A stretch of DNA of 26,557 nucleotides from a virus, in the IMG/VR virus record IMGVR_UViG_3300005613_000354, positions 1 to 26,557 of that record. One strand, 5' to 3'. The notes beneath the pieces were generated by a model. That model was not told the DNA's origin. It made no database searches and saw nothing but the letters and a program-made list of their open reading frames with translations. Position numbers and translations under genes: made by a program. Shown here piece by piece: positions 11,662 to 16,232 of this stretch. Every line of letters begins with the position of its first letter. Position 1 is the first letter of the stretch.

Positions 11662-12384
11662 ATGAGTAAATATGAAATAGTAAAAATAGATGAAGTTGAA
11701 GTCACATTAGACTTAAGTTTGTTTCAGAAAAGTGAAGAACTTTATTTTAATGCTACGGAAATAGCAAAATATTTTGGAAAAGATGTTAGAGAATGGCCTA
11801 AATCAACAGAAACTCAAGAATATTTAAAAGCAATTTTAGAAGAATATCCAAGTTTAATTGATGGGAAAACCCCGCAATTAGAATTCGGAAAACTTATAAA
11901 AACTTCACGAGGTCGATATGGTGGAACATATCTTCATAATATTTTAGCTCTTTCTTTTGCTCGCTGGTGTTCAGCTAAAATAGCTGTTAAGTTAGACAAA
12001 TTTCTCATAGAAAAGATTAGAGAAGAACAGTGTCGAAAAGCAAAGATATTAGAAGCTAAAACCGGATATCGTCCTATGACAGATGCCATTCAAGAAGCTC
12101 ATGATCCATGTAATTTTTATCATTTTTCTAATGAAGCTGACATGATAACAAAAATAATTACTGGAAAGAATGCTAAACAACTTAAAGAAGAATTCAAAAC
12201 AGAAAAAGTAAGGGAATGTTTAAACGCTAGAGAAATCCATGCTTTAGAAAATCTTCAAAGAGCTAATACTATATTCATTCAAATGGATTTACCTTATACA
12301 GAAAGAAAAGAGAAGTTAATAGCTTTATATAACAAAAGGTTTTCTCAAATTGCTTGCGACAACTATAAACTACCATTAACTTAA
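11662..12384 (+). CDS. KilA-N domain DNA-binding protein
   Basis: A 240-aa protein. The KilA-N domain covers about residues 20-115: LYFNATEIAKYFGKDVREWP, RGRYGGTYLHNILALSFARW and CSAKIAVKLDKFLIEKI. KilA-N is a winged, APSES-related DNA-binding domain found in phage and large-virus regulators, often mobile. The C-terminal part (GYRPMTDAIQEAHDP, YHFSNEADMITKIITGKNAK, then helices) is the usual companion domain of unknown role. The gene opposes terL and their stops overlap by four bases. Its start has no strong ribosome site, relying on coupling to the 65-aa gene. As a plus-strand two-gene cassette between minus-strand portal and terL it looks like a moron. Confidence 0.85.
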   Translation: MSKYEIVKIDEVEVTLDLSLFQKSEELYFNATEIAKYFGKDVREWPKSTETQEYLKAILEEYPSLIDGKTPQLEFGKLIKTSRGRYGGTYLHNILALSFARWCSAKIAVKLDKFLIEKIREEQCRKAKILEAKTGYRPMTDAIQEAHDPCNFYHFSNEADMITKIITGKNAKQLKEEFKTEKVRECLNAREIHALENLQRANTIFIQMDLPYTERKEKLIALYNKRFSQIACDNYKLPLT

Positions 12385-14885
12385 ATCTGGTATCTTCTAT
12401 TTTCTGTAGCTCTTTTATGCTTGTCTAAAGCTCCCGAGAATGAGCTTATCTTTTCTATATTGTCAACTGCCGAACAACAGTATTGGAAAGCATCGCTGGC
12501 ATTTGAGTTGCTTACTAAAAGACCGTTAGCAAAATAGCAATGATCTGTTTCAACTTCCAGATCGTAAACGTCTATTTCTGTGTCCAAGTATAGTTCCACA
12601 TTCTTTAGAACATGTTTTCGTTTTTCTGTATTTTGAGCATTCAAATTCCTTTCCACAAATTTTACATGCTCTTTTTTCATTATCTTTTCCTGTTCTTCTT
12701 CTAAATTCAGCTCGGCATGCATTTGAACACATTCTCGACCTTTCCCATTTAGACGAATATTCTTTCCCACATATTTCACAAATTTTGTTAAATAATGGTT
12801 TACTTGCAAAAACTTTCTTTCCATGTTCTTTATGCCATTCAAGCCCTTCTTTTGATCCATGCCATATTTTAGAGGCTTCTTGTGCTTTTTTAAGAGTTTG
12901 CCTTGATATAAATTTCCTTTCTTCTGTTGACATGTGCATAGACAAATGTTCTTTACTTGACATAAGCTTAAGGTTTTCAATTTCATTATTAGATTTATTT
13001 CTATCGATGTGATGTACCATATGGTCTTTTGGAATTTTTCCATTAAAGAATCCCCAAACCGCTCTATGCAGTGTTCCAAATCCCTGCTGTTTTCTTCCAC
13101 CAAGCCAATATCCGAATTCATTTTTAGTATATTTAAGTCCGTTAAAAAAGATAACCGTTTCAGATTCATTGATAAGAAAGAGTCCTTGAATCCTAACTTT
13201 TTCTCCTTTCCATGGAATATAACTTTGTTGCATATGTCCTCATCTTTTATAGTAATAATTTGATCAGTATAATACAATGAGTCTGCTGTTACAAGACCTT
13301 TATTTGTGAATATCATATGATGAGGAGTACAAGTTATCTCCGTTTCTTTGGTTTTAACTCTAACAAGCCTATTAGTTTTATGTTTAAACACATTCTTTAC
13401 TAGTCTTAATCCATTAGGAGTTAATACTTTATCTCCAACAACCATTTGGTCTATTCTTTTCTTTCCATGTTCAGTTTCTATTAAAGTTTCTCCTATAAAA
13501 CATGCTATGTTATGCACAGGAAGATCCAAATATCTACCCAATGGTTCACTCCACTTCTTTCGGTATTTCATCAAGTGATCTATCAATGGCTTAGTCCTTT
13601 GCAAGGCAAATACGCATCTATCTAGTTTAATCTTAGCATTATTGATCTGTAGATTTTTATCTGTCCTCTTAAGCACTTTTACCTTAGTTGCCGTATGTTC
13701 CATATATCGCTTAAAGTCTCGCTCATATGTGTTTTCTACTACTATACCGTCTCGCTTGGCTGCATCATGAGGCAAATATATAGTGTGATATAAATATTTT
13801 TTATCGTTAAGAAGGTAATTACAATAGAAATCTACGCCTTTGTTATTATCTTCATAATAATCAATTATCCTTATCTCACCGTGAACCACTTGAAAGAAAA
13901 TTATACAAGTTAAGTCATTAACACCTATGTCCATAGCTAAATATACAGGTGCTAAAGCGTCATATACCGGTGTGTTTAACATCCGACTTTCATTATAAGC
14001 CTTTTCTATCTGTAATTGAAAATAGTATGCGTCATTATTAGCTAGAAAAGCTTCCGAAATTAAAGAACAAAATTCTTGTTTAACCTTATCTCCAAGGATA
14101 GATTTTTGGTGAGTATACCAATAACGTTGCTCATTATCTATCTTGCAATTAAGCTTTTCTTCAAGCTTATCAAAGTATTTAGATTGTTCATAATCTATAG
14201 TAACAGGCTGTTTCATTCTACAAGATTTATCTTGTAACCAGTTAAAAAAGAATAGTTTATACTCTAAAGGTGATAGATTTTCATTTCCTCTTTGATGAGC
14301 TACAGTGCATAACTCGTAAAAATAGCTTTCCGCCCCTTCCCCTGTAGACTCAATTATTACTTGTCCATCTATCGGAACAGCTTGAAGTGTTCCCGTCATA
14401 ACCTCTTCAGCTTTAATAGGATTCCTAGCACATGTTTTACCAAATTCTGATACCAAGATAGATTGATAAGAACCACCTCTCAAGGTTGTATCAACTCGAA
14501 GAAATGATCCATTCCGAAAAGTTATCTCTCTAGCACTTCTTTGCGTCATTCCTGCTATAGTTTTCATCTCAGGTGATAGATTATCCAATGCATGGCCTAA
14601 AATGCGTTTAAAGATGTGCTGTGCGTGTTCTAAGCTATATGAAACAATTCCAGCTGATAAGTTAGCGTTAAAGATAGTCTCATCAAGCATGTACAAAACT
14701 GCAAATGTTGACATGCCAACCTGCCGGCTTTTAAGAATTAAGTTCCTGTTATGCAATCCTTTAAGAACTTCTTGTTGAATCGGATTGAGCCTAAACTTTA
14801 TAGAATCGCCCTTCTTATCAACAATCCTATAAAGGTTGTTCATTCTCCACTCTTTTGAATCTAATAATGTTAAGTCTTCTTTCAT
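12381..14885 (-). CDS. terL: Terminase large subunit, intein-containing precursor
   Basis: An 834-aa precursor; without the 332-aa intein (residues 462-793) it is 502 aa, normal for TerL. Packaging ATPase: Walker A-like KSRQVGMST (52-60), Walker B-like ILVSEFGK (143-150) and coupling-motif-like IIESTGEG (177-184). RNase H-like nuclease: MDIGVND (318-324), LPHDAAKRD (371-379) and SDAFQY just after the intein. The splice junction IA|C...N|SNASDAF puts the intein at the third nuclease acidic motif, a classic protected homing site. The ATG at 14885 is preferred to the one at 14894: it overlaps the upstream stop as ATGA and has GGGATGG before it. Splicing is needed to restore the nuclease site. 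The 3' end converges on the KilA-N gene. Confidence 0.88.
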   Translation of the reverse strand: MKEDLTLLDSKEWRMNNLYRIVDKKGDSIKFRLNPIQQEVLKGLHNRNLILKSRQVGMSTFAVLYMLDETIFNANLSAGIVSYSLEHAQHIFKRILGHALDNLSPEMKTIAGMTQRSAREITFRNGSFLRVDTTLRGGSYQSILVSEFGKTCARNPIKAEEVMTGTLQAVPIDGQVIIESTGEGAESYFYELCTVAHQRGNENLSPLEYKLFFFNWLQDKSCRMKQPVTIDYEQSKYFDKLEEKLNCKIDNEQRYWYTHQKSILGDKVKQEFCSLISEAFLANNDAYYFQLQIEKAYNESRMLNTPVYDALAPVYLAMDIGVNDLTCIIFFQVVHGEIRIIDYYEDNNKGVDFYCNYLLNDKKYLYHTIYLPHDAAKRDGIVVENTYERDFKRYMEHTATKVKVLKRTDKNLQINNAKIKLDRCVFALQRTKPLIDHLMKYRKKWSEPLGRYLDLPVHNIACFIGETLIETEHGKKRIDQMVVGDKVLTPNGLRLVKNVFKHKTNRLVRVKTKETEITCTPHHMIFTNKGLVTADSLYYTDQIITIKDEDICNKVIFHGKEKKLGFKDSFLSMNLKRLSFLTDLNILKMNSDIGLVEENSRDLEHCIERFGDSLMEKFQKTIWYITSIEINLIMKLKTLSLCQVKNICLCTCQQKKGNLYQGKLLKKHKKPLKYGMDQKKGLNGIKNMERKFLQVNHYLTKFVKYVGKNIRLNGKGRECVQMHAELNLEEEQEKIMKKEHVKFVERNLNAQNTEKRKHVLKNVELYLDTEIDVYDLEVETDHCYFANGLLVSNSNASDAFQYCCSAVDNIEKISSFSGALDKHKRATENRRYQI
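12507..13502 (-). other. Intein within TerL (332 aa), splicing domain split around an out-of-frame HNH ORF
   Basis: Begins with Cys (codon 13502-13500), CFIGETLIETEHGKKRIDQM then VVGDKVLTPNG (block A). Block B is TCTPHHMIFT. The C-terminal blocks are DVYDLEVETDHCYFANGLLV and end in SN (12509-12507), followed by Ser as the +1 residue. The first ~89 and last ~30 residues are the splicing domain, i.e. a mini-intein in size. The middle (precursor residues 551-779) has no recognisable endonuclease in the intein frame. That stretch instead encodes an HNH enzyme in the -1 frame. The residue before the terminal Asn is Ser, not the usual His, which occurs in some active inteins. Expected product: spliced TerL plus free 332-aa intein. 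Confidence 0.85.
12550..13233 (-). CDS. HNH homing endonuclease nested in the TerL intein in the -1 frame
   Basis: A 227-aa ORF in the -1 frame relative to TerL. Residues 35-70 (YTKNEFGYWLGGRKQQGFGT, LHRAVWGFFNGKIPKDH) and HMVHHIDRNKSNNEIENL to KEH (71-96) form a clear HNH core. The C-terminal half has two zinc units: CEICGKEY with CSNAC (C152/155/169/173) and CKICGKEF with CSKEC (C190/193/208/212). It starts at its own ATG with GATGAGGA four bases upstream; an in-frame TGA lies three codons before that ATG. It ends inside intein block F. The ORF therefore fills exactly the place of the normal in-frame homing domain. The HNH motif and zinc units show this frame is the functional one here. Confidence 0.85.
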   Translation of the reverse strand: MQQSYIPWKGEKVRIQGLFLINESETVIFFNGLKYTKNEFGYWLGGRKQQGFGTLHRAVWGFFNGKIPKDHMVHHIDRNKSNNEIENLKLMSSKEHLSMHMSTEERKFISRQTLKKAQEASKIWHGSKEGLEWHKEHGKKVFASKPLFNKICEICGKEYSSKWERSRMCSNACRAEFRRRTGKDNEKRACKICGKEFECSKYRKTKTCSKECGTILGHRNRRLRSGS

Positions 14886-15052
14886 GCAAACCATCCCATA
14901 TATGATAATAATAAGTCTTCAGTTTCTCCTCTTGTCCATACTATCCATTCGTCAATACATAAAACTTGAACTTCTGTTGTAGAATCGTTAAACTCTACTA
15001 AACGTCTATCATCAAACGTCGCCCACGTCTTAATAATCTTTCTTTTAGTCAT
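14882..15052 (-). CDS. Small hypothetical protein upstream of terL, 56 aa
   Basis: MTKRKIIKTWATFDDRRLVE then a Trp-rich acidic stretch (CIDEWIVWTRGETEDLLLSY) ending MGWFA. Its ATG overlaps the end of the AP2/HNH-like gene (ATGACTAA) and its TGA overlaps the terL start as ATGA, so it is coupled on both sides. AAGGAATGGA upstream of the ATG, within the end of the endonuclease gene, is a good ribosome site. No family recognised. Gene order suggests a packaging-module accessory protein. Confidence 0.6.
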   Translation of the reverse strand: MTKRKIIKTWATFDDRRLVEFNDSTTEVQVLCIDEWIVWTRGETEDLLLSYMGWFA

Positions 15053-16232
15053 AAATTAATTCCATTCCTTTAAATTTATAACCCAAAACTTGCATCCTTG
15101 TTTTTAAATTATATCTTTTTGTGGGTCCGATCACTTTAACAATTTCTTCAAATGTTTTTTTATCTTTAGCCATTTTATGAATTATTGCGTCTCGTTCTTG
15201 TGCTGTTCTTTTTCTCGCATCCCTTCTTTTTATACCCATGTTTTTAATTCTATAACTTGGATTAAAACCTAATATGTTTTCTATTTCCTTAAAAGTTTTA
15301 CCTGATTCATATAATTCTTTTATCTTTTCATCTGAAATATCGTTTCTTTTAAGCCATTGCCCCGTCTCTCCATATTTATTCATAGAAATCGCTTCTTCAA
15401 AGGTTTTTCCTCTTTGAATTCTTGATCTAATTAACCCAAAATTTAAATTTAGTTCTTCACACCATTCTTGCAAGAATTTTTTAACCCCTTTGTATTCAGT
15501 TCCGATTTTATTGAGAAGTTTTTCTCGTCTGTTTTTTGCAACTAAATCCGTTGATTTAATTAAAAAACAATTTTTTGGATTAAATTCTTTTTTGCCTTCT
15601 TTGATATCAACCGTTAAAGCTTTATTCCAATTCTTAGATTCAAGCCATTTTATAAATGCTTCTGCTGAATTCTTCCAAATAGAACAAACCGTATAACCCT
15701 TACCGCCATAGAAATCATATGATTGAGATTTACTATTATAACATTTATGAAGAAGAGAAATCCATCTAGTATAAGCAGGATGTGCACATAATCTATGTTT
15801 TTTAGGGTATAGAGTGTCGTTGACATATCTAGAGTTGTTTTTTTGAATATAACAGCCACAACTAACAGTATGACCGTTTCTTATAGAATCTGCTGCAATC
15901 CATAACACCGTCCCGCACTCACATACGCATAACCACTCCCTATATTTATGACCGTTTCCCCATTCTGAAATTCTCCATTGATCTTGAACTAATAATCTAC
16001 CAAATTTCTTACCGCCGATATAAAATTCACTACGCCTAAAAACACAGTTTGGGCATTCGTAAACTAAACCAGCTGTTAAATCACTTTGTCTTCTTATAAA
16101 CCTTTCTTTACAGTCACACTCTAGCAAATATTCTTTCGGTGGATACTTTCTAGTGTCATTTTCTCGTTTATAAACGCTTAATACTTTTACTCTACCAATT
16201 TTTTTCCCGACAAGATTTATTGCTTTTGGCAT
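15045..16232 (-). CDS. AP2/HNH-like mobile endonuclease with duplicated CxC/SCGC module
   Basis: A 395-aa protein. Residues 10-63 and 74-127 look like two copies of one zinc module: GKKIGRVKVL...LECDC...YECPNC and GKKFGRLLVQ...WLCVCECG...GHTVSCGC. The core at about 151-236 reads HPAYTRWISLLHKCYNSKSQ, YDFYGGKGYTVCSIWKN, TVDIKEGKKEFNPKNCFLI, KNRR. This is the pattern of phage AP2/HNH-type homing proteins ('W..M..RCY.P.....YGGRGI.VC..W', '.D......Y.P.NC', 'NRR'). The C-terminus has two helix-turn-helix-like repeats (DEKIKELYESGKTFKEIENI; ERDAIIHKMAKDKKTFEEIV), likely target binding. It separates the 58-aa and 56-aa genes with almost no spacing. The canonical catalytic His-Asn pair is not clear, so nuclease activity is uncertain. 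Confidence 0.72.
   Translation of the reverse strand: MPKAINLVGKKIGRVKVLSVYKRENDTRKYPPKEYLLECDCKERFIRRQSDLTAGLVYECPNCVFRRSEFYIGGKKFGRLLVQDQWRISEWGNGHKYREWLCVCECGTVLWIAADSIRNGHTVSCGCYIQKNNSRYVNDTLYPKKHRLCAHPAYTRWISLLHKCYNSKSQSYDFYGGKGYTVCSIWKNSAEAFIKWLESKNWNKALTVDIKEGKKEFNPKNCFLIKSTDLVAKNRREKLLNKIGTEYKGVKKFLQEWCEELNLNFGLIRSRIQRGKTFEEAISMNKYGETGQWLKRNDISDEKIKELYESGKTFKEIENILGFNPSYRIKNMGIKRRDARKRTAQERDAIIHKMAKDKKTFEEIVKVIGPTKRYNLKTRMQVLGYKFKGMELIYD

Follow-up and report, generated by a model that had tools for sequence, protein, structure and literature searches.

A predicted phage terminase intein overlapped out of frame by an HNH endonuclease gene, and the recurrence of this two-frame layout in phages and genome contigs

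Canonical inteins carry their homing endonuclease in frame, as is the case for PI-SceI, and the homing enzyme I-HmuI is encoded in a group I intron. In fractured genes, as far as a citing paper describes them, split inteins are found with a homing endonuclease between their halves (Dassa et al. 2009, cited in PMC10448857), and TerL inteins of mycobacteriophages have been placed in the ATPase domain (PMC5050341). Out-of-frame HNH insertions were published in 2025 for phage DNA methylases, as the ShiLan domain and the insertion in Pacc40 gp60 (PMC11855218), with phage Applejack as a further case (PMC12613952); the authors of the former saw no intein or intron splicing domain and proposed that the insert stays in the protein. 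These two reports were the only ones on out-of-frame HNH insertions in the literature that we searched. A 2025 preprint on non-canonical actinophage inteins may also touch on the subject, to the extent that its title and its citation in PMC11855218 suggest unusual or overlapping architectures. A first-pass annotation of the locus studied here had stated that no intein with an HNH gene in another frame was known; we likewise found none described, although an out-of-frame HNH without an intein is now on record.

The stretch of DNA analysed herein (“the window”) is a 26.6-kb viral record (IMGVR_UViG_3300005613_000354, 26,557 nt), whose large terminase gene, terL, harbors the features listed below. 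The 332-aa intein (12507–13502) and the 227-aa HNH ORF (12550–13233) in the −1 frame had both been reported in the first-pass annotation, and their coordinates and frames proved correct.

12381–14894, minus strand: terL, large terminase precursor with intein, 837 aa (PHROG terminase large subunit, E 6e-23)
12507–13502, minus strand: predicted intein, 332 aa (C1...N332, S+1), inserted at the TerL motif PVHNIA/SNASDAFQY
13248–13502, minus strand: HINT N-terminal half, intein residues 1–85, free of HNH overlap (AlphaFold pLDDT mostly >90)
13237–13241, minus strand: GAGGA, Shine-Dalgarno-like, 3 bases before the HNH ATG and within the intein coding sequence (duplex −6.0 kcal/mol)
12550–13233, minus strand: HNH endonuclease ORF, 227 aa, wholly within the intein and in the −1 frame relative to it
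12946–13071, minus strand: HNH_3 motif, HNH residues 55–96
12715–12780, minus strand: first Cys4 zinc-finger-like motif (C152, C155, C169, C173), invariant in 58 relatives
12598–12666, minus strand: second Cys4 motif (C190, C193, C208, C212), from sequence and alignment
12550–12552, minus strand: HNH stop TGA, formed within GTTGAA, the Val-Glu codons of block F in the intein frame
12507–12614, minus strand: HINT C-terminal half, intein residues 297–332, blocks F and G (AlphaFold); its 5′ part is shared with the 3′ end of the HNH ORF
12381–12506, minus strand: TerL C-extein (SNASDAFQY...)

In the window, terL and the intein form a single continuous 837-aa ORF, and intein-free relatives of this TerL share 79–82% identity with it. 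No match was obtained when phages were searched at the DNA level with the window region as query. Just upstream of terL lies a 395-aa ORF (15045–16232, minus strand) that matches PHROG HNH endonuclease families (E 2e-39) and constitutes a second HNH beside the terminase gene, seemingly unrelated to the one in the intein. On the other side, a gene for a KilA-N domain protein (11662–12384, plus strand, E 1e-17) is convergent with terL and has a 3′ end that shares a few bases with the terL stop.

The intein begins with CFIGETL and ends with LLVSN, and the next residue is Ser. Its frame was matched by Pfam Intein_splicing (E 1e-11 to 7e-11) and by the NCBIfam models intein_Nterm (E 4e-6) and intein_Cterm (E 8e-6). 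The splice residues C1, T59, H62 and N332 are invariant across 59 relatives, and the penultimate residue, which in the window is Ser and not His, is also Ser in 19 of these 59 members. In the AlphaFold model, built from an alignment that leaves out the GenBank-phage sequences, the two HINT halves (residues 1–85 and 297–332) are of high confidence and the insert between them is mostly of low confidence, with the gp41-1 intein as the nearest solved structure to the HINT part (Foldseek E 5e-7). The gp41-1 intein is naturally split. The TerLs of four relatives (L001, L002, L006 and L008) continue uninterrupted through the exact insertion site and contain no intein. Judged by the criteria that sequences and models allow, namely the splicing residues (C1, T59 and H62 of block B, N332 and S+1), a HINT fold (Pfam, AlphaFold and Foldseek) and absence of the element from that very position in homologous host genes, all of which are met, the window element is an intein, with splicing itself being inferred. 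Some further relatives of the window TerL (L018, L026–L030) have other insertions at about residues 61 and 220, in some cases with a frame change across the insertion gap.

The overlapping −1 frame was matched by Pfam HNH_3 (E 1e-15) and by a PHROG HNH endonuclease family (E 6e-39). Residues H74, H75 and H96 are invariant in 58 relatives and N83 and N87 are present in 57 of the 58, and the window HNH meets the criterion of catalytic residues. Its structure model (pLDDT 88.5) found its best Foldseek match in I-HmuI (PDB 1U3E), which was also the only PDB sequence match (E 5e-4). The second of the two Cys4 motifs is missing in shorter members of the family. The first-pass annotation had placed the HNH exactly in the slot of the homing domain; the ORF in fact exceeds that slot, its last ~20 codons overlapping a HINT strand and block F.

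Contigs retrieved with the HNH protein were shown by tblastn to encode the intein over its full length in a frame other than that of the HNH, with a constant offset between the two. A search of related terL inteins for the two-frame arrangement, as the first-pass annotation had proposed, identified at least 152 loci with the same relative frame (HNH −1 of the intein, both open) in IMG/VR, GTDB genomes and four GenBank phages, which reduce to at least 126 at 95% HNH identity and to at least 92 clusters at 50%. The layout thus belongs to a widespread family and not to the single colonization event that had been inferred from the window. A profile-based census of viral and genome contigs covered at least 114 non-redundant HNH loci, 72 of which have the intein frame +1 of the HNH and open throughout, with one more being partial, and four of which (L104, L106, L109 and L136) have an open intein frame at +2. 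Another 13 are split terL loci, where the intein N-half, the HNH gene and the C-half follow in series with stops between them, as in Lactobacillus phage CL2 (L063); in one of these (L074) the start of the C-half overlaps the HNH stop. The remaining 24 lack an intein N-block, although one locus counted among them (L152) is also dual, its contig beginning inside the intein. An HNH fused in frame with the intein splicing domain was found at none of the 114 loci. In an intein-led scan, which brought the +1 total from the census up to the at least 152 loci given above and is biased to inserts resembling that of the window, 72 of 73 non-redundant inteins had an HNH in the same out-of-frame position, the sole one without a recognizable HNH being L258. 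Since each scan took in at most 80 loci and the census favors relatives of the query, the locus counts are lower bounds and not frequencies.

The nearest relative of the window among those listed (L187) is 59% identical in the HNH and 46% in the intein and occupies the same TerL site. The GenBank phages with the layout are Acinetobacter phage Highwayman, Rhodobacteraceae phage LS06-2018-MD07, Tetrasphaera phage TJE1 and MT838676. The gene bears no label beyond terminase in the three named phages, and the record of MT838676 is unannotated. TJE1 is the only actinobacterial phage with the layout among the GenBank phages searched, and the layout also occurs on contigs labelled Thermoplasmatales (L155) and Nitrosotalea (L162). 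Wherever host domains are recognizable, the intein hosts are terminases. One TerL on a Clostridium MAG contig (L158:1331–4732) contains two two-frame inteins at different motifs, which we take to be the Walker B and first nuclease motifs, just as we take the C-terminal TerL insertion motif to be a nuclease motif. The TerL ORF of L162:2–3706 matches a LAGLIDADG domain as well as a two-frame HNH intein. A separate case is L091:2627–3712, where the +1 frame of an HNH is open over 362 codons and ends in CDAMRY without a recognizable block F, perhaps representing a decayed or divergent two-frame intein.

As the dual class requires an open frame by definition, a count of stops is informative mainly against shuffled sequences and free-standing controls. 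We kept the HNH protein and each sequence's own codons, shuffled the synonymous codons and counted stops in the intein frame. For the window alone, the intein frame stays open in 0.8% of the synonymous shuffles, and across the 72 non-redundant loci (12259 codons) no stop was observed where 149.9 were expected. In the same shuffle, HNH genes without an intein N-block had 129 stops (125.7 expected) and split loci 104 (98.4 expected), while the four +2 loci had none in their own intein frame (40.8 expected) and 41 in the other frame (32.1 expected). HNH copies without an intein contain 397 stops in the +2 frame versus 129 in the +1 frame (about 10% vs. 3% of codons), and it may be because the +2 frame is about three times richer in stops that the +1 arrangement is by far the commoner.

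The two frames also differ in what they conserve. In the HNH frame, sequences compared pairwise score highly along the overlap (mean similarity of up to 3.9 BLOSUM units per bin); in the intein frame the score stays near zero over most of the insert, and the order is reversed in the last bin (intein 1.33 vs. HNH 0.62 BLOSUM units), where the HINT strand and block F begin. No amino-acid constraint was detectable on the intein-frame insert, the similarity of which equals that of synonymous shuffles from which stops were excluded (z −0.5 to 1.3); the splicing frame is therefore held open and is otherwise free. Protein-level selection on this insert was considered and rejected, as z values of 3–6 were obtained only when stops in the shuffles were scored and were gone once these were excluded. 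A comparison of third positions (fourfold sites) between dual and non-dual pairs was suggestive but rested on few independent pairs, with exceptions, and carries no weight in what follows. Protein-level conservation inside the insert is confined to the HNH frame, the intein frame merely staying open. The earlier inference that both frames are maintained consequently stands as regards the openness of both, but it does not extend to the amino acids of the intein-frame insert.

The median position of the HNH start is intein residue ~89, and the HNH stop precedes the last Asn of the intein by a median of 19.3 residues (within 11–25 residues in 65 of 74), the stop often being made by block F codons for Tyr-Asp, Tyr-Asn or, in the window, Val-Glu. 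Anti-Shine-Dalgarno pairing averaged −4.5 kcal/mol at 75 HNH starts versus −2.45 kcal/mol at 356 other same-phase ATGs in the same ORFs, with 45% and 11%, respectively, reaching −6 kcal/mol or lower (Mann–Whitney p 2e-5). Near-perfect sites precede the starts of L120 and L129, and many members, several AT-rich ones among them, have no Shine-Dalgarno sequence before the HNH start. Because pairing is stronger at HNH starts, internal initiation is the best reading of the sequences for the HNH, and a frameshift fusion is less likely; production of the HNH is itself an inference.

We hold with good confidence that the locus is a two-frame intein, with TerL obtained by read-through and splicing, the HNH by internal initiation, and the element spreading by homing, where splicing, HNH production, cleavage and homing are all inferred. 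This interpretation builds on the observed layout and its recurrence, the purging of stops, the conservation of one or the other frame by region, the Shine-Dalgarno enrichment and the existence of intein-free alleles at the site. Ribosomes from the terL start would read the whole intein in frame, and the HINT halves (residues 1–85 and 297–332) would fold, excise the intein and join TerL, with the ~210-residue insert in the intein frame acting as an unconserved spacer, the only detectable duty of which is to contain no stop codon. The −1 frame would yield an HNH enzyme with zinc-finger motifs from its own start, an ATG preceded by GAGGA within the intein, and its translation would usually end at the stop created by the block F codons. 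The enzyme would most likely cut or nick intein-free terL at the insertion site, with intein and HNH being copied in together (homing). The first-pass annotation had argued that the intein frame must be read through and the HNH made separately, which would free the endonuclease from the splicing fold, and this argument gains support from the at least 152 loci, the stop purging, the conserved HNH frame and the Shine-Dalgarno enrichment.

Several alternatives were weighed against this interpretation. A pair of sequencing or assembly frameshifts that splits one in-frame intein–HNH protein would account for one contig; the same frame relation is however present in at least 152 loci, including finished phage genomes, unrelated assemblies and more than 100 contigs, and the 114-locus census has no in-frame member. 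Such a frameshift pair and in-frame homologues were the two outcomes that the first-pass annotation had named as fatal to its proposal; neither materialized in the loci surveyed, and we regard the artefact as refuted by the census. That the intein frame is dead, and open by chance or through HNH codon bias alone, is a thought invited by the natural scarcity of stops in the +1 frame of the family (about 3% of codons in the absence of an intein, about 10% in +2), but it is hardly tenable given 0 stops in 12259 codons where the sequences' own codons predict 149.9, invariant splice residues, and copies without an intein that show the expected stops. Were the HNH produced as an extension of the intein N-half through a −1 ribosomal frameshift, its −1 position in at least 152 loci and the members without a visible Shine-Dalgarno sequence would be understandable; four loci that use the opposite frame, the enrichment of Shine-Dalgarno sequences at HNH starts, and an HNH-frame stop shortly before the start in most members, which leaves little room to shift, render this route quite improbable.

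A further possibility is that the HNH is a DNA-packaging factor working with the terminase and not a homing enzyme. Terminase-associated HNH proteins are referred to in a later paper (Kala et al. 2014, cited in PMC12613952), free-standing HNH relatives adjoin terL in many phages, and the recognizable intein hosts are terminases. The free-standing copies nevertheless have no fixed position or strand (BP10 has its copy upstream of terS, Shemara on the opposite strand), close TerL relatives of the window have no intein at the site, and the structure that best matches the HNH is that of the homing enzyme I-HmuI, so that a packaging role appears unlikely to us, with homing by a separately translated HNH remaining the preferred reading. 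The presence of free-standing HNH genes next to terL suggests that a terL-aimed enzyme joined a resident intein, or the reverse. The divergences of HINT and HNH are correlated (Mantel r 0.53, 0 of 2000 permutations) and intein and HNH are therefore now inherited together, with a nearest neighbor common to HINT and HNH in only 14 of 52 cases. It is plausible that a mini-intein was invaded by a terL-adjacent free-standing HNH; the direction is not shown, and the HNH tree, in which three of the four +2 loci group near the split locus L074, has weak support at depth and gives neither the number of origins nor the direction. The TerLs of Highwayman and BP10 were tried as an empty-site pair and set aside as too unlike (30% over 158 residues).

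Taken as a class, these elements likely represent a large and undescribed group of phage and prophage terminase inteins in which the HNH is out of frame as a rule: a co-inherited overlapping unit with a stop-purged splicing frame, in which only the HNH frame is informative through the insert and block F doubles as the HNH stop signal. Inteins would then have a third means of mobilization, alongside in-frame endonuclease domains and endonuclease genes flanked by split halves, and this would explain how an independently folding endonuclease can travel with an intein and need not fold within it. Free-standing HNH genes next to terL, split inteins and continuous inteins are connected through a single HNH family, and the loci offer a large natural collection of genes overlapping on the same strand, where one frame encodes a conserved protein while the other is merely held open. 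Annotation misses such HNH genes and inteins, the named terL genes that we examined carrying neither label.

When compared with known systems, the window shares with ShiLan an HNH out of frame inside a host ORF, the host frame being without a stop (a test that the window passes), as well as zinc fingers in the HNH, I-HmuI as top structural match and a disjunct distribution; the ShiLan host is however a methylase without a splicing domain, whereas the window host is TerL with a full HINT around the HNH. As a separate observation, an HNH-like ORF at a contig edge (L029:1–600, E 9e-11), upstream of an intein-free terL relative, has its +1 frame open into sequence like the C-terminus of a DNA methylase and resembles the ShiLan layout in an unrelated phage. 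With fractured genes the window has in common a separately translated endonuclease (in the window by inference) between intein halves, with gp41-1 as the nearest PDB structure to its HINT and 13 relatives of its HNH in split terL loci, but its intein and TerL form one continuous ORF that the endonuclease overlaps in another frame, and the test of a split is failed. Like canonical inteins it is a HINT element, mobile by inference, whose endonuclease occupies the customary insertion slot of the fold, and like the mycobacteriophage examples it has a TerL host, yet its endonuclease is in the other frame and not part of the intein protein, so that the in-frame test is not met; most two-frame inteins, moreover, are situated at the C-terminal motif, in contrast to the ATPase domain of the TerL inteins in PMC5050341. 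The HNH core is common to the window enzyme and I-HmuI, whereas the former overlaps an intein and adds Cys4 motifs. With the 2025 actinophage-intein preprint left out of this comparison, the two-frame intein appears to be an undescribed and widespread mobile element, and the window combines features of the known kinds while failing a defining test of each kind that bears an endonuclease.
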